Origin: Rugamonas violacea
Lineage (GTDB): Bacteria > Pseudomonadota > Gammaproteobacteria > Burkholderiales > Burkholderiaceae_D
Length of the DNA: 64,000 bases
Assembly: GCF_016461825.1 (NCBI RefSeq)
Contig: NZ_JAEMNU010000022.1
Coordinates: 20,775-84,774 of the forward strand
Direction of reading: 5' to 3'
Made by a program: the position numbers and the translations under genes. Positions 6,441-32,392 of this stretch are shown piece by piece (the stretch's first letter is position 1; the number at the start of each line of letters is the position of its first letter). The notes beneath the pieces are model-generated. The model was not told the DNA's origin, made no database searches, and was given only the letters and a program-made list of their open reading frames with translations.

Positions 6441-7214
6441 TTACACCGACGCTTTACAAAACGCCTTGATCAGGTCGAAAGCGTAGCGCGAGGCGACCGA
6501 TTTGACGAAACGCATGAAATCGACGGCCGCCGCCTCGTTGGCCTTGTCGGAAATCGTCCGGATCACCGTGAACGGGATGCCCAGCTCAAAACACACTTGC
6601 GCCACGGCGGCGCCTTCCATTTCCACCGCCAGCAAAGCGGGATGGGCTGCTTTCAGCTGCGCGATTTGGGCGCCGCTGCGGATGAACTGGTCGCCGCTGG
6701 CGATCAAACCACGGTGCAATTGCGGCCGATTCAGGCCGAATTCCCGCTTTTCCGCCGCGTCGATGACCTCATCGAGCGTGTTTTGGATGAAATGGCTGGC
6801 CGCGTCGCTGAGTCGATTGCTCAAATCCAGGTCCGATTCGAAGTGCGACAGGCCGGTCAGCGGCACCTGGTAGCGTGGAAACAGCGGACTGGCGTCCATA
6901 TCGTGCTGCAACAAGGAATCGGCGACCACAATGTCGCCCACATTCACCAAGTTGTCCGCGCTGCCGGCGACGCCGGTGAAGACAATGTGGGTAACTCCGA
7001 ACTTTTCCACAAGGATAGAGGCTGTCATGGCAGCCGCAACCTTGCCTATACGCGACAAAACGCACACAGCGTCGATTTCCCACAACTTCCCTGCCGTGTA
7101 GTCCCGCATGCCATGCGTGAGCTTGTAGGGGCTCTGCATGGCCTCTATGAGCCCGTGCTGCTCTTCAGCAAGCGCACTGATCACTCCTAAACGCATCGTT
7201 TTGCTTGAATTCAT
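6441..7214 (-). CDS. mtnN: 5'-methylthioadenosine / S-adenosylhomocysteine nucleosidase
   Basis: A 257-aa cytoplasmic nucleosidase that cleaves MTA and SAH to adenine and a thioribose product, in methionine salvage and the activated methyl cycle, also feeding autoinducer-2 precursor formation. The PNP_UDP fold is clear: N-terminal LGVISALAEEQ, the FTGVAGS substrate loop, the EMEGAA segment with the ribose-contacting Glu, and the catalytic Asp in ISDKANEAA near the C-terminus. Family members are usually about 230-260 aa. ATG at 7214 is taken; a second in-frame ATG six codons later (7196) has no better ribosome site. The gene is convergent with putA and stands alone. The upstream 670 bases hold DnaA-box elements instead of an obvious promoter. 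Confidence 0.93.
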   Translation of the reverse strand: MNSSKTMRLGVISALAEEQHGLIEAMQSPYKLTHGMRDYTAGKLWEIDAVCVLSRIGKVAAAMTASILVEKFGVTHIVFTGVAGSADNLVNVGDIVVADSLLQHDMDASPLFPRYQVPLTGLSHFESDLDLSNRLSDAASHFIQNTLDEVIDAAEKREFGLNRPQLHRGLIASGDQFIRSGAQIAQLKAAHPALLAVEMEGAAVAQVCFELGIPFTVIRTISDKANEAAAVDFMRFVKSVASRYAFDLIKAFCKASV

Positions 7215-7277: not shown

Positions 7278-7505
7278 GGGTTTTATATAAAGATATATAT
7301 ATAAATCTGATAGTAGATAGTAAACCACTGCTTTTCTGTGGATAAGTCTGTAAACCGAAGAAAAATCATCGACTTAGCCTGCCGAAAAGTGCTTGCACAA
7401 ACATTGTATCTAGGCAGGATGAGTTCGGGATAAAAAAGTGCTTGTGGACAAAGATCGACTTTTCCCACATCTCATCCTGTGGATATGCAGGCAGTTGTCC
7501 ACAGA
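7278..7505 (+). repeat. DnaA-box element, copy 1 of 3
   Basis: An AT-rich block with alternating TA and TAG triplets (7280-7325) is followed by a perfect inverted DnaA box TGTGGATAA (7337-7345). A second box TGTGGATAT lies exactly 141 bp further (7478-7486), then an opposing box TTGTCCACA (7495-7503) 18 bp after that. Spacing is identical in copies 2 and 3. No protein gene is supportable anywhere in 7215-7880; short open frames there follow the repeat and are not conserved between copies. Between copies 1 and 2 (7506-7703) I see nothing recognisable. Confidence 0.85.
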
Positions 7506-7703
7506 CGAAAGACCAAAAAGCGGCTTTTCAGTGCTGGTTTGACATCTTGGGCGATGTTTTTGCTGTTGCGGGCGTGCAGAGGGGAGGTTTGGCGAACAAT
7601 TCGACGCTTCTGCACAAGCGCAGCTTGCACTTGCCGCTGGCGGTTTTTCAGTAGAGAAGTAAACGAAAAAAAATTCGAACCGCCTTCGGCGTGTTCTTTA
7701 GTT

Positions 7704-7925
7704 GTTTACAAAAGCTTTTATATAAAAATAGTAGTTATAGTAAACGCGCGCTTTGCTGTGGATAACCCTGTTAACAGCTTTAAAATCATCCGTTTACGAC
7801 AAAGATAAGCGCTCGGACAAGGGCTGTACCAGTTCAGGAGCAATTCTGTATAAAATGTCGCCCTTTGGGCAACTTTGTCCTTACTCACAAGTCGTCCTGT
7901 GGATATCCAGCGAGTTATCAACAGG
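7704..7925 (+). repeat. DnaA-box element, copy 2 of 3
   Basis: Same layout as copy 1, starting 420 bp to the right: AT/TAG-rich block (7704-7745), perfect box TGTGGATAA (7757-7765), box TGTGGATAT 141 bp later (7898-7906), opposing box TTATCAACA (7915-7923). Its right end overlaps the last codons of the GGDEF/EAL gene, whose stop is at 7881-7883, so the final 15 or so residues of that protein are encoded by element sequence. Confidence 0.85.
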
Positions 7926-10900
7926 CAGGTACTGATTTCTGATGGTTTTTTCCAGTTCCTCACTCGAAATCGGCCTGGAAAACAGGTAACCCTGGCCAAA
8001 ATCACAACCAACCGACTGCAAGGCCTGCATTTGTTGCGGCGTTTCGATGCCTTCGGCGATCACCTGGATGCCCAACTTGTGCGCCATGGCGATAATTGCC
8101 CCGCATAAGGTGATGCCGTCGGTGCCTTCCGCCAGATTCGAGACGAAACTCGGGTCGATCTTGATGTAGTCGATGTCGAAGCGCTTCAAAAACGCCACCG
8201 AACAGTAGCCAGTGCCGAAATCGTCCAATGACACCTGCATATTGGCTTTGCGGAAAGCCTTGAACTTGTCGGCGATCGCGTTGTCCGGGTCGAGCAACAG
8301 GTCTTCCGTCACCTCGATGATGATGTTGTGGGCTTGCAAGTCCAACTCGGCCAGAAAATTCAGCCATTCCTGGTAGTTGCTGCCGTCGTCGCGGAACTGC
8401 CAGGCCGATTTGTTCACGCAAATCTGGAATTCCGGCAGGGCCATTTGCTGCAGCCGCTTGGCCTCGCGCGCCGCCTGGCGGAACACCCAGTCGCCGATGC
8501 CGACAATGCTGCCGGTGTGTTCGGCGATGGCGATGAATTCATGCGGGCTCATCAGCCCGCGCAACGGATGTTGCCAGCGCACCAGCGCCTCGGCCTTGCA
8601 GATGCGGCCGCTGGCCAGCTCGATGATGGGCTGGAAGACGATGCGCAACTCGTCGCGGCCGACCGCTTCGCGCATTTCGTTGCCCAGCGCCATGCGCACG
8701 CGGGTCGCCTCCTGCATGAAGGGGGCGAAATAGTTGAAGCGGTTGCGGCCCTGCTGCTTGGCGGCATACATCGCCTGGTCGGCGTTTTTGATCAACGTTT
8801 CGGCGCTGTCGCCGTCGTCGGGGTAGAGCGTGATGCCGATGCTCGACGAAATATGCGCGATATCCTCGTTCAAGGTGAACGGCGCGGCCATTCTTTTCAG
8901 GATTTCCTGGGCGATCCGCACCACATCGCTGGAATTGTGCAGCTCGCTGAGGATCACGGTGAACTCGTCACCGCCCAGCCTGGCCACGATGTCGGTGCCG
9001 CGCACGCACTGGCCGAGCCGGCCTGCCACTTCCTTGAGCAACAAGTCACCCTTGTCATGGCCCAGGGTGTCGTTGATCTCCTTGAAATGGTCGAGATCGA
9101 TGAACACCAGCGCCATCGGCAAGTGCGAGCGGTCGGTTTTCTTCATTTCCAGCCGCAAATGTTCATGGAACATGCGGCGGTTCGGCAAACCGGTCAGCGC
9201 GTCGAAGTTGGCCTGCTTCCAGATCAACTCCTCCGAGGCCTTTTTCTTCGTGATGTCGGTGAACAGGGCGACCAGGCGGAACACCTGGCCCTGCTCGTCG
9301 AACACGGTGTTGAAGCGCAGCGACACCAAATAGTGCTCGCCGTTCTTGTGTTGGTGCCAGATTTCGCCGGCCCAGTGACCGGTGCGGCCGATCGATTGGC
9401 GGACCTGGGTGAAAAAGCTCAAATCCTGCCGGCCGGAGGTCAGTTCGTAGGCGCGCCGGCCCAGCACCTCCTGCTCGGCGTAGCCGCTGATCTGTGAAAA
9501 CGCCGGATTGACCGACAGGATGCGGCCTTCGGCGTCGGTCACCAACATGCCCTCGGCGCTGTTTTGGTACATCAGCGCCGCCAGCTTCATCGATTCTTCG
9601 TTCTTTTTGCGCTCGGTGATGTCCTCCACCATCAAAAACAGACCGCGCACGCTACCGTCCGGCTGCGCATCCGGCACATAGGTGACGCCGTCCCAACGTT
9701 CGACGCCGGCTTGGCGCACCAGGCGCTCGAAATAGACGAATTTCCCGTCCAATACTTCGCGCAGATGTTGTTCTGCCTGCTTGAAAATCTCCGGGCTGAC
9801 GACATCCACGACGCTGCGCCCGGGGCTGCTCTGGTAGGGGATGTCGAACACCGTGTCGAACTTGCGGTTGGTGAATTCGTAGTGCAAGTCCTTGTCGATA
9901 TAGGCGATCATCACCGGCATATTGTCGGCGACCAGGCGCAGGCGTTGTTCGCTGATCGAGAGTTTTTGCTCGGTTTCATGGCTCGACACGTACAACAAGC
10001 GGTAGCGCAACTCGCGCTCCTCCAATTTGGCGTAGGAACGCAGGGCGAAATGGCCGCCGGCCACCATCAATAGCAGCAGCAACAGCAAACCAGCGCCGGC
10101 GATCACGACGTTTTTACTCACCAGCCGCGTCGACTCCGCATCGGAACTGCCGACAACGACGATCAAGGGTAGACCATCGAGCACGCGGAAGCTGAAAATG
10201 CGCGAGCTCTTGTCTATCGTGCTGACGGTTTGATAGCTCCCCAGTTTTCCCTTGGCGATGTTGGCGAACAAGGCCGTGTGGCTCAGGTCGAAATTAAACG
10301 ATTCGTCGAAGTTCGGCGCGCGGGCGATGACTCTGCCGCTGCTGTGCACCAGGGCGATCGACACATCCGGGCTGAAGCGGGATTTTTCGAAGACCTTGCC
10401 GAAAAAAGTGGCATTCAGCGGTGCCACGATCACACCCAGCAGTTCGCCGTCGGCACCGTCGACGCGACGGCTAAGGAAAAACACCTTTTCCTTGATGACC
10501 TTGCCAATCGCCGGACCGCCGACGAATAAGCCGGGCGAATTTCCAGGTTGTATATGCGCCTGGAAATAGTCGCGATCGGCGTAGTTCGTGCCGGTTATCG
10601 ACAACTGGTTCGAGGACGCCACGCCCTGGCCATTGGCGTCGATGAAACTGATCCAGAAATCGCGCCGGAAGCTGGACGTGCGCGGCGACAGTAGCGTCGT
10701 CATGGTGGTGGGCGAACTACTTTGTTTGGGCGGCAGCATTTTGATCGCGTTCGAATACCCCTGCAGGGACAAATCGACGAACTGGATGGTGTTCAGCACA
10801 TGGGCTTCCATGGCTTGGACAAAATTCTGGGTTTGTTGGCGTACGGCTTGGTCGCGTTCGACGAAGGCGGCGCGTAATTGCATGCTGACCACGGCGATTG

Positions 10901-11006
10901 CCAACAGTGCCATCAACAACAAGCCGGCGATCAAGCGGCGGCGGAAGCGCAGATACGCTTTGGAACGCGGGAAGTGCTCCAGCGAAAAGTAGTCCGTGGC
11001 GTTCAT
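7881..11006 (-). CDS. Membrane sensor diguanylate cyclase/phosphodiesterase (Cache-PAS-PAS-GGDEF-EAL)
   Basis: A 1041-aa inner-membrane c-di-GMP enzyme. TM1 at about residues 25-47, an extracytoplasmic Cache-like sensor (about 48-290) and TM2 at about 292-315 (leucine-rich) are followed by two PAS domains (about 350-480 and 482-600). The GGDEF domain has an intact RLGGDEFTV active site near 677. The EAL domain has an intact KAEALVRW motif near 805. Both catalytic signatures are complete, so either activity is possible. The C-terminus (last 15 or so residues) derives from the adjoining DnaA-box repeat. A TATACT -10-like hexamer lies on the minus strand at 11151-11156. No good ribosome site precedes the ATG. 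DnaA-box elements flank the gene on both sides. The signal sensed is unknown. Confidence 0.93.
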   Translation of the reverse strand: MNATDYFSLEHFPRSKAYLRFRRRLIAGLLLMALLAIAVVSMQLRAAFVERDQAVRQQTQNFVQAMEAHVLNTIQFVDLSLQGYSNAIKMLPPKQSSSPTTMTTLLSPRTSSFRRDFWISFIDANGQGVASSNQLSITGTNYADRDYFQAHIQPGNSPGLFVGGPAIGKVIKEKVFFLSRRVDGADGELLGVIVAPLNATFFGKVFEKSRFSPDVSIALVHSSGRVIARAPNFDESFNFDLSHTALFANIAKGKLGSYQTVSTIDKSSRIFSFRVLDGLPLIVVVGSSDAESTRLVSKNVVIAGAGLLLLLLLMVAGGHFALRSYAKLEERELRYRLLYVSSHETEQKLSISEQRLRLVADNMPVMIAYIDKDLHYEFTNRKFDTVFDIPYQSSPGRSVVDVVSPEIFKQAEQHLREVLDGKFVYFERLVRQAGVERWDGVTYVPDAQPDGSVRGLFLMVEDITERKKNEESMKLAALMYQNSAEGMLVTDAEGRILSVNPAFSQISGYAEQEVLGRRAYELTSGRQDLSFFTQVRQSIGRTGHWAGEIWHQHKNGEHYLVSLRFNTVFDEQGQVFRLVALFTDITKKKASEELIWKQANFDALTGLPNRRMFHEHLRLEMKKTDRSHLPMALVFIDLDHFKEINDTLGHDKGDLLLKEVAGRLGQCVRGTDIVARLGGDEFTVILSELHNSSDVVRIAQEILKRMAAPFTLNEDIAHISSSIGITLYPDDGDSAETLIKNADQAMYAAKQQGRNRFNYFAPFMQEATRVRMALGNEMREAVGRDELRIVFQPIIELASGRICKAEALVRWQHPLRGLMSPHEFIAIAEHTGSIVGIGDWVFRQAAREAKRLQQMALPEFQICVNKSAWQFRDDGSNYQEWLNFLAELDLQAHNIIIEVTEDLLLDPDNAIADKFKAFRKANMQVSLDDFGTGYCSVAFLKRFDIDYIKIDPSFVSNLAEGTDGITLCGAIIAMAHKLGIQVIAEGIETPQQMQALQSVGCDFGQGYLFSRPISSEELEKTIRNQYLPVDNSLDIHRTTCE

Positions 11007-11266
11007 GCTTGCGTTGCCCGGCGATAAACCGGCAAAACGACAGTCGCCATCGCGGCGAGCGGTACTCGTCGGCAGGCAGGGCGTCGAGGTTTGCGCTGGA
11101 TGGGCAAAATGACTCCGTTTTGGGCTGGCTAGGCGATTTCAGTATAGGGGCAAGCTATGGTCGCGAAAAATGATTTCTGCTCTCAGGCAAGGAATTTGGC
11201 CGGCTTGTGGTTTTGCCGTCGGTTCGGCGGGCGATTCGGGGTTTCGGTTCCTTTCGCGTTGGCTTT
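11007..11266. other. Intergenic upstream region of the GGDEF/EAL gene
   Basis: This forms the left part of a 557-base gene-free stretch (11007-11563). Apart from a minus-strand TATACT (11151-11156) that could be the -10 of the GGDEF/EAL gene, with no convincing -35, I see nothing in it. The right part is DnaA-box element copy 3. Confidence 0.4.
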
Positions 11267-11495
11267 GGTTTACTGTAAAGATATAGATATAAAAATAGTA
11301 GTAGTTGTTAACGTGGACACCTTTCTGTGGATAAGTCCTGATTTTGAATTAGAATCAAGCGTTTGCGCGATGCATAAGCGGGCGCGTAAACGCTGTATGA
11401 GCTGGGAACTGTTTTGGGATAAAAAATGGCTCCCGAAAAATTTTTTGTTTACTCACATTCCGTGCCTGTGGATATCCATAGAGTTATCCACAAGG
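11267..11495 (+). repeat. DnaA-box element, copy 3 of 3 (best-preserved boxes)
   Basis: AT-rich block with a TAGTAGTAG run (11267-11312), perfect box TGTGGATAA (11326-11334), box TGTGGATAT (11467-11475) again 141 bp later, and a perfect opposing box TTATCCACA (11484-11492) 18 bp on. It lies 3569 bp from copy 2 in the same orientation, so copies 2 and 3 bracket the GGDEF/EAL gene as direct repeats. A TTTACTCACA segment just left of the second box also recurs in copy 2. Confidence 0.87.
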
Positions 11496-11563
11496 GAAAT
11501 CCCCTTTTTTGCTTAAATTGAAGGCAAAATCCGGCGGAGCACGCAGTTTTCGGAGGGTAATTG

Positions 11564-12601
11564 ATGGTTTTACAAACACTTTTTCCACATCCGATCATTC
11601 AAGGTCCGACCGCCGGCGGGCAGAACACACCGGCCCAAATCGCCGCCGTCAGCAACGCCGGCGCGCTCGGATCGCTGGCTTGTTCGTTGCTCACGCCGGA
11701 GACGATCCGCAGCCAGGTCGAGCAGATCCGCAGCCTGACGCAACGGCCTTTCGCGCTGAACTTCTTCGTCCAGACCACGCCGCAACCCGATCCTGCCGAG
11801 CTGGAGCAGGCGCGCCAGTTGTTGCGGCCGGTGCTCGACCTGCTGGGCTGGGACGAGCTGCCGTTGCCGGCCAAATGGTGCGAGGATTTCTCCGCCCAGT
11901 TTGAAACGCTGATCGCGCTGCGTCCCGCCGTCGCCAGTTTCACCTTCAACATCCTCAGCGCCGACCAAGTCGCGCGGCTGCGCGCCGCCGGCATCGTCGT
12001 CATCGGCACCATCACCACGGTGGCCGAGGCGCTGGCCTGGCAAACCGTCGGCGCCGATGCCGTGATCGCCTCCGGCGTCGAGTCGGGCGGCCATCGGGGC
12101 ACCTTCCTCGGCCGCCAGGAAGACGCCACCTTGTCCACTTTCGATTTGTTGGCGGCGGTGGTCGCGGCGGTGACGATTCCCGTGGTTTCCGCCGGCGGCA
12201 TCATGGACGGCGCCGACATCAAGCGGGCGCTGGACCTGGGCGCCAGCGCGGTGCAGATGGGCACCGCTTTCCTGGTGGTCGACGAGTCGGCGATCGCGCC
12301 GGCCTACAAGGCGCGCCTGTTGGCGGCCGGCAGCCAGCCGACCCGGCTGACGCGCAGTTTTTCCGGCCGCTACGCACGCGGGCTGGAGAATCGTTTCATG
12401 ACCCTGATGGCGCCCGTCGAAGCGCGGGTGCCGGCCTATCCGATCCAGAACGCGCTGACCGGCGCCATCCGCGCCGAGGCCGGCAAGCGCGGCGACACCG
12501 AATTGATGTCGTTGTGGTGCGGCACCGGCGTGGCGCGGGCCCGGCCGATGCCGGCCGCGCAACTGGTGGCGACCTTGCTGGCGGAAATCGCGGCGGCCTG
12601 A
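11564..12601 (+). CDS. Nitronate monooxygenase (2-nitropropane dioxygenase family)
   Basis: A 345-aa FMN-dependent TIM-barrel enzyme that oxidises alkyl nitronates, such as propionate-3-nitronate, to carbonyl compounds and nitrite. Visible family features are the N-terminal HPIIQGPTAGGQNTP segment, the barrel motif ASGVESGGHRG with the conserved catalytic-region His, and the phosphate-binding stretch SAGGIMDGADIKRAL followed by LGASAVQMGTAFL. The length matches the family. ATG 11564 has GGAGGG seven bases upstream; the TTG three bases before it is less likely. It begins 69 bp after DnaA-box element 3 and is not obviously co-transcribed with the next gene, from which dispersed repeats separate it. 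The substrate is not determinable here. Confidence 0.88.
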   Translation: MVLQTLFPHPIIQGPTAGGQNTPAQIAAVSNAGALGSLACSLLTPETIRSQVEQIRSLTQRPFALNFFVQTTPQPDPAELEQARQLLRPVLDLLGWDELPLPAKWCEDFSAQFETLIALRPAVASFTFNILSADQVARLRAAGIVVIGTITTVAEALAWQTVGADAVIASGVESGGHRGTFLGRQEDATLSTFDLLAAVVAAVTIPVVSAGGIMDGADIKRALDLGASAVQMGTAFLVVDESAIAPAYKARLLAAGSQPTRLTRSFSGRYARGLENRFMTLMAPVEARVPAYPIQNALTGAIRAEAGKRGDTELMSLWCGTGVARARPMPAAQLVATLLAEIAAA

Positions 12602-32191: not shown

Positions 32192-32207
32192 TGTTTCACG
32201 TGGAACA
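32192..32207. promoter_or_regulatory. parS site 1
   Basis: TGTTTCACGTGGAACA. Each half matches a known natural half-site of parS (TGTTTCACGTGAAACA / TGTTCCACGTGGAACA), with one position asymmetric. It is the binding site for the ParB encoded at 36063, between the TSUP stop and its terminator. Confidence 0.92.
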
Positions 32208-32214
32208 AAGCAGG

Positions 32215-32244
32215 GGCGCCGGGTCAAACCGGCGCCTTTTTTTT
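32215..32244 (+). terminator. Rho-independent terminator of the TSUP gene
   Basis: GGCGCCGG (32215-32222) pairs with CCGGCGCC (32229-32236) around loop GTCAAA, followed by eight Ts. Confidence 0.93.
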
Positions 32245-32271
32245 GCCGACGCCGGCGGCAATATTGGGCAC

Positions 32272-32333
32272 CCAAAGGCAAAGTGCCGGGGTCGGACCCG
32301 TCGGGTCCGACCCCAGATTTGCGCCTCAGGGGT
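32272..32333. repeat. Dispersed GGGTCGGACCC palindromic element
   Basis: Core arms GGGGTCGGACCC (32288-32299) and the exact reverse complement (32303-32314) with a 3-base spacer. The left flank CCAAAGGCAAAGTGCC matches the flank of the copy at 6361. It lies between the two parS sites. Confidence 0.8.
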
Positions 32334-32376
32334 GGGCGTGCGTCCCCTGCGCCCCACCATTTCCACCATTTACCAA

Positions 32377-32392
32377 TGTTTCACGTGGAACA
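32377..32392. promoter_or_regulatory. parS site 2
   Basis: TGTTTCACGTGGAACA, identical to site 1 and 185 bp from it, about 110 bp upstream of mnmG. Confidence 0.92.

Follow-up and report, generated by a model that had tools for sequence, protein, structure and literature searches.

A probable chromosomal replication origin with three tandem DnaA-box and DnaA-trio modules in Rugamonas violacea

The window analysed here is a 64-kb stretch (65% GC; C89:20775-84774) of the draft genome of Rugamonas violacea (6.93 Mb in 173 contigs), and it holds three units of about 230 bp, all on the same strand, in which an AT-rich block is followed by DnaA-trios and ordered DnaA boxes. Unit 1 lies at 7278..7505, unit 2 at 7697..7925 and unit 3 at 11267..11494, each on the plus strand. 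To their left is a 5'-methylthioadenosine/S-adenosylhomocysteine nucleosidase gene (6441..7214, minus strand) and to their right a nitronate monooxygenase gene (11561..12601, plus strand). Units 2 and 3 are separated by a cyclic di-GMP (c-di-GMP) gene of the PAS-GGDEF-EAL type (7881..11006, minus strand), whose last codons contain two of the DnaA boxes of unit 2.

Read rightward, each unit begins with an AT-rich block and a run of TAG or TAA triplets that closes with AAC. After a spacer of 11-13 bp comes a perfect minus-strand DnaA box (B1), which is followed by an IHF-like site, by a further minus-strand box (B2, ATATCCACA) and by an opposing box on the plus strand (B3). TAG on this strand is 3'-GAT-5' on the other, which is the DnaA-trio motif. 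In all three units, B1 and B2 are 141 bp apart and B2 and B3 17 bp apart, start to start. In unit 1, the AT-rich block (7280..7324) is the least stable 45 bp of the window, and the trio run (TAGTAGATAGTAAAC, 7311..7325, plus strand) leads to B1 at 7337..7345. The IHF-like site AATCATCGACTTA (7364..7376, plus strand) has one mismatch to WATCARNNNNTTR, which we take to be the IHF consensus and on which all the IHF-like sites rest. B2 (ATATCCACA) and B3 (TTGTCCACA) follow at 7478..7486 and 7495..7503, and an extra box, again TTGTCCACA, lies on the minus strand at 7443..7451, 106 bp after B1. Unit 2 has its AT-rich block at 7697-7741, trios at 7729-7745, B1 at 7757-7765, the IHF-like site at 7784-7796, B2 at 7898-7906 and B3 at 7915-7923; its triplet run is interrupted (TAG-TAG-TTA-TAG-TAA). 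The corresponding positions in unit 3 are 11267-11311, 11296-11312, 11326-11334, 11353-11365, 11467-11475 and 11484-11492. When the 45-bp stretches of the window are ranked from the least stable upward, the three AT-rich blocks come first, third and fifth.

A published rule for the basal unwinding system (BUS) of bacterial origins, from which our trio rule is taken, describes a DnaA box and at least three trios with A in the middle, separated by no more than 16 bp, with a peak at 10-13 bp (PMC8287927, in excerpt). Units 1 and 3 have this arrangement, and the run of unit 2 is short by one trio. The triad pattern B1-N132-B2-N8-B3, with two free positions in B3, has three matches in the window and none in 100 shuffles, and DnaA boxes with at most one mismatch number 16 where 3.4 are expected. 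An earlier note, made from the letters alone, had described three copies of a DnaA-box element with an AT-rich, TAG-containing block and a second box exactly 141 bp after the first, and all of this stands, with the single TTA of unit 2 as a refinement; its distance of 18 bp to the opposing box was one too many, and it named neither the DnaA-trios nor the IHF-like sites that we find in each unit. It also proposed a genome-wide search for copies. Unit 1 as a query returned the three linked units, of which one gave a second fragment as well, and five short matches with E above 1, a pattern for the B2/B3 half-unit likewise had three matches, and no further or scattered copy was found in the draft genome by these searches. 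Besides the units, the nucleosidase gene contains at 6986-7011 two boxes, TTACCCACA(-) and TTTTCCACA(+), that are 17 bp apart, as B2 and B3 are; this pair is also present in four related loci (L060, L061, L062 and L117).

Relatives were fetched through the nitronate monooxygenase gene adjoining unit 3, which gave 67 named loci, the nearest kin being Rugamonas and Duganella (Oxalobacteraceae). Complete units are present in 59 of them, on the strand of the nitronate monooxygenase gene: 42 loci have two units, 16 have three and one has a single unit. The eight loci that have no complete unit, and so stand outside the unit counts, are two short contigs of metagenome-assembled genomes (L098, L121), three loci of Noviherbaspirillum/Herminiimonas (L111-L113), one of Comamonas (L118) and two of Providencia (L122, L123). 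When units were defined by their boxes alone, with the window included, 135 of 136 had a run of at least three trios, the exception being unit 2 of the window. By position, such runs were found in 59/59 first, 16/17 middle and 59/59 last units, with mean lengths of 4.4, 4.8 and 3.2 trios and an AT content of 0.71, 0.67 and 0.69 in the AT-rich blocks.

The geometry of the units is conserved. When 163 units of 72 sources are aligned, the trios, B1, an IHF-like block (aaaATCA...gtTTacg, kept across the alignment), a CACA block, B2 and B3 are conserved and the sequence between them has diverged. A scan of 93 sources in which the spacing was left free found 220 starts made of trios and B1; 196 of these had a B2/B3 pair, at 140-143 and 17 bp in 194 cases and at 139/17 and 106/18 in the other two, and 24 had no such pair at one mismatch per box. 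Five of the 220 starts are repeats of the same sequence, and counting each sequence once leaves 215 starts, 191 paired, of which 189 are at 140-143 and 17. The scan also accepted G in the middle of a trio and is in this looser than the published rule; applied to 1.2 Mb taken from elsewhere in two relatives, the same start rule matched once. No source among the 93 had paired units on both strands.

With one mismatch allowed, 218 of the 392 genomes searched in the family have the half-unit B2-N8-B3. Of 300 searched in the order, 8 have it, R. violacea being one of these and two lying outside the family; read backwards, the pattern was absent among the matches listed. By hand tally, 39 of the 40 genomes with genus code g139 and 45 of the 55 with code g11 have at least three matches on one strand, and 54 of the 55 with code g1 have at least two; in one g139 genome (G638) the third match is on another contig. 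These counts cover B2 and B3, B1 and the trios having been checked only in the fetched loci. Code g139 is probably Janthinobacterium and g1 probably Duganella/Rugamonas. Two relatives have in addition a lone B2/B3-like stretch 82-86 kb from their units (L035, G002 C22:151632; L042, G009 C31:185240), and no complete unit was found in the 20 kb surrounding it.

What separates the last two units varies. The PAS-GGDEF-EAL gene or a relative of it is there in 34 of the 58 multi-unit named loci (hand count, best tblastn segment only), and in the other 24 the last two units are 120-457 bp apart. Since the gene is present or absent among relatives, the locus, if it is the origin, has tolerated that a gene of 2-3 kb was acquired or lost. 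In L068, L077, L082, L084 and L116, the best match to the c-di-GMP gene is confined to the portion preceding the EAL domain.

We also compared the units with one another. Unit 1 of the window is 98% identical to unit 1 of Rugamonas rubra and 76-79% identical to the first units of L091 and L224. Between five Rugamonas-like sources (the window included) and four Janthinobacterium-like ones, identity at matching positions is 61-80% (median 72% over 60 comparisons), against 54-66% (median 60% over 27 comparisons) for units at different positions within one genome. A unit thus resembles its counterpart in another genus more closely than it does the other units of its own genome, which indicates that the copies are old and separately kept. 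A tree of 94 of the 163 units, with 16 of its 91 inner branches drawn open, shows strong clustering of the position labels, which change 20 times where shuffles give 56.4; in it the first units of Rugamonas and Janthinobacterium group by position, as do their second units. The third units do not form one clade (six changes, at least three forced by starred branches), and Massilia-like genomes seem to have duplicated their units separately. The last two units of G373 (L229) pair together, as do the first two of G068 (L225), which suggests later duplication or conversion in those lineages. Finally, three genomes of genus code g14 in the tree and context set have a single complete unit; in the g14 genome G431 a second, B2/B3-like half-unit lies 1.35 kb from the complete unit (L230:9286-9312), with no B1 or trio at the expected place.

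The place of the units on the chromosome was examined in relatives with closed or nearly closed genomes. In G008 (one contig of 6.53 Mb), GC skew was sampled in 20 stretches running from 5.88 Mb across zero to 2.395 Mb, of which 18 are negative, and in 21 stretches between 2.399 and 5.57 Mb, of which 20 are positive. This raw sign change is 50-54 kb from the units (2.449-2.451 Mb), with dnaA at 2.040 Mb. In G353, the sampled stretches have negative skew between 6.15 Mb and, across zero, 354 kb; the values are close to zero at 354-374 kb, and all six stretches between 374 kb and 1.5 Mb are positive, as are, slightly, those at 5.8 and 6.0 Mb. Here the sign change falls at the units (363 kb), and dnaA is at position 1. 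A strand bias of KOPS-like motifs (FtsK-orienting polar sequences) was tried in G008, had few sites and was left unused. The dif motif of E. coli, matched with 2-3 mismatches, gave one site in 16 of 23 genomes and none in the other seven (G560, G373, G312 and four g14 genomes). The units are at least 0.95 of a half chromosome from the dif-like site in 14 of the 16 genomes, and dnaA in one; the median distances are 0.987 for the units and 0.882 for dnaA, and the units are nearer than dnaA to the point opposite dif in 15 of 16. Five of the 16 (G554, G602, G570, G068 and G310) have two or three contigs, contig C1 being treated as circular.

Altogether, the anatomy of the units, their conserved geometry, their separate retention and their place with respect to skew and dif in relatives lead us to give a probability of about 0.72 to the proposal that this locus is the chromosomal oriC and that it comprises three complete tandem modules on one strand. 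The earlier note proposed either an origin nearby or a DnaA-titrating or -reactivating locus. The trios, the unstable AT-rich stretches, the relatives' skew and the dif position support the first of these and sharpen it, as the stretch itself is very probably the replication origin of this bacterium; titration is less supported, though it is possible for single units. The note was also right that mnmG, parA, parB and the atp genes point rightward, as rsmG does too, and that parS lies in this region: we find two parS-like sites, at 32192 and 32377 (32192..32392, plus strand), with one mismatch each, followed by mnmG-rsmG-parA-parB-atp.

Several observations weigh against this interpretation. 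When the skew was corrected for gene orientation, using our own gene calls and a terminus set by hand, the switch fitted best 29-64 kb to the left of the units, at 2385-2405 kb in G008 and 305-335 kb in G353, and the position of the units was below the best fit by 10.1 and 4.3 log-likelihood units, respectively (dnaA by 32.8 and 7.0). Because noise at the level of genes is correlated, we read this fit as support for the neighbourhood of the units and not for the exact site. A skew minimum elsewhere had been named as a point that would refute an origin here; in the two relatives, where positions are resolved to about 60 kb, none was seen. R. violacea's own contig, which is noisy and has its cumulative minimum near 108 kb with the units at 28-32 kb, gives no support, raw skew within the window being uninformative. 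Two of the 16 genomes with a dif-like site deviate (G554, at 0.754, and G068, at 0.929 with dnaA nearer), and the 16 are not independent, since 13 come from one genus. Three long Oxalobacteraceae loci (L111, L112 and L113) have no complete unit near the nitronate monooxygenase gene; as the units of a g15 genome (L227) are about 9-10 kb from a relative of that gene, units beyond the fetched flanks are possible in these three. Finally, B3 is perfect in 39/80 first and 20/33 middle units, compared with 71/80 last units, and thus the units may not be equal.

How would such an origin work? By analogy with Escherichia coli and Bacillus subtilis, DnaA would load at B1 and at B2/B3, with IHF bending the DNA between them; a DnaA filament would then start at B1, spread along the DnaA-trios and melt the AT-rich stretch next to them. 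With its box, trios and AT-rich block, each copy contains the components of a basal unwinding system. Replication could begin at any unit, the remaining ones being copied passively soon after: since the units lie within about 4 kb, we propose that opening one would replicate the others, so that the cell would keep one origin with several start sites, with redundancy or graded firing among them. An origin with two or three independently competent modules, kept through the divergence of several genera, partly specialised and in some cases split by the c-di-GMP gene, seems to us to have about an even chance. Their partial specialisation may be seen in the longer trio runs of earlier units and the best-kept B3 of the last.

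The origin of E. coli consists of an AT-rich element, a perfect box, an IHF site, further boxes and an inverted far box. The units resemble it in order, in a size within about 240 bp, in lying on the mnmG side of the chromosome and in being apart from dnaA; E. coli oriC differs in being one module, in having no known trio run as clear and in its box spacing. BUS-type origins, known from B. subtilis and predicted in most origins (PMC8287927, in excerpt), share with each unit the box, the 11-13 bp spacer and the TAG trios; here, however, there are three complete modules instead of one, and they are far from dnaA. By most features tested the locus is, and would work like, a BUS-type oriC; its novelty lies in how many complete modules it has and in their being maintained separately. 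Putative double origins in Acidaminococcus, Ralstonia pickettii, Ochrobactrum and Dehalobacter (PMC4403523, in excerpt) likewise have more than one origin-like cluster per chromosome, but these are separate loci or duplications of the dnaA region, in contrast to the tandem modules of the same geometry found here in many species. A title-level search listed no paper titled on an origin in Oxalobacteraceae among its matches.

The strongest competitor, which we consider a real but lesser possibility, is an oriC with a single start unit, probably unit 3, in which the other units are accessory DnaA/IHF clusters that aid or restrain it, as in split origins. It would account for the well-kept B3 of last units, and two-unit loci of Duganella/Rugamonas keep the last unit together with one that groups with unit 2. 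There is also a precedent in the bipartite origins of B. subtilis and Helicobacter pylori, whose box clusters are separated by a gene, usually dnaA, and of which one subregion holds the unwinding element (PMC4285127, in excerpt). At our locus, by contrast, all three units have an unstable AT-rich block and trios, and where a gene separates the clusters it is a c-di-GMP gene. Trio runs and AT-rich blocks are kept at every position, and accessory clusters would not need them.

That the units are datA- or DARS-like loci for DnaA titration or reactivation, with the true origin elsewhere, is improbable. The E. coli loci also combine DnaA boxes with an IHF site, and the corrected skew fit away from the units would agree with such a role. 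Yet datA and DARS are not known to have trios or an unwinding element, and titration leaves unexplained why every unit keeps trios and an AT-rich block; moreover, the units are opposite the dif-like site, and no cluster of at least four boxes was found in the stretches sampled at the fitted switch (2375-2395 and 2399-2419 kb in G008, 300-320 kb in G353; some bases unsampled). A candidate for a datA/DARS-like or accessory locus is a DnaA-box-like cluster without visible trios beside a glmU-like gene, about 14 kb left of the units on the same contig and outside the window (L011:13905-14457, C89). Box clusters 13-14 kb left of the units are also present in G353 (349 kb) and G008 (2435.8 kb).

We find it very unlikely that the origin is at dnaA or hemE-priA and that the units are relics. 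Adjacency of oriC to dnaA is common and not obligatory. In R. violacea, dnaA is on another contig, in agreement with the earlier note, in the order dnaA-dnaN-gyrB and with one perfect box just upstream; the only trio-and-box start in its 20-kb locus has a one-mismatch box and lies between dnaA and dnaN, not upstream of dnaA. In 16 relatives dnaA is 275-568 kb from the units, and the dnaA loci of 12/12 relatives have one perfect box each and no trio-and-box start. In g14, a complete unit lies about 7 kb from dnaA, with flanking genes that are shared with the window but inverted around the unit; it therefore appears that dnaA and the origin parted in the lineage with several units. As for hemE, DnaA boxes with IHF-like sites, alike in the two genomes, lie beside it in G353 (107 kb; L242:7000-7900, between priA- and hemE-like genes) and G008 (2245.8 kb; L152:5500-6700), a hemE-adjacent oriC has been predicted in R. 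pickettii (PMC4403523, section 4, in excerpt), and to the left of hemE in G008 the skew is weakly positive in one of the stretches sampled (2185 kb). However, the skew makes no lasting change at the hemE cluster of G008, and it is negative on both sides of dnaA in both genomes and of hemE in G353. In G008 and G353 the point opposite dif is about 190-265 kb from the hemE cluster and 9-12 kb from the units, no trio-and-box start was found in the sampled hemE stretches, and relics would not keep their geometry in 194 of 196 paired units. Lastly, mobile or regulatory repeats, such as promoter elements of the three genes beside which the units lie, are hardly credible, as neither the 72,556 plasmid records searched with unit 1 nor the 50,697 phage records searched with unit 3 gave a match at E<=0.001 and as strand and neighbourhood are constant across genera, though the gene between the last two units comes and goes.

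If the locus is the origin, it departs from the textbook single origin in that its start module is present in three copies, a design kept by many related species. One practical consequence is that in closed records that start at dnaA (e.g. G353, G425, G521, G554, G560 and G310) base 1 is probably not the origin. More generally, natural origins with two or three modules across a family would make it testable whether several orisomes coexist, how firing is held to once per cycle and why the copies have been retained.
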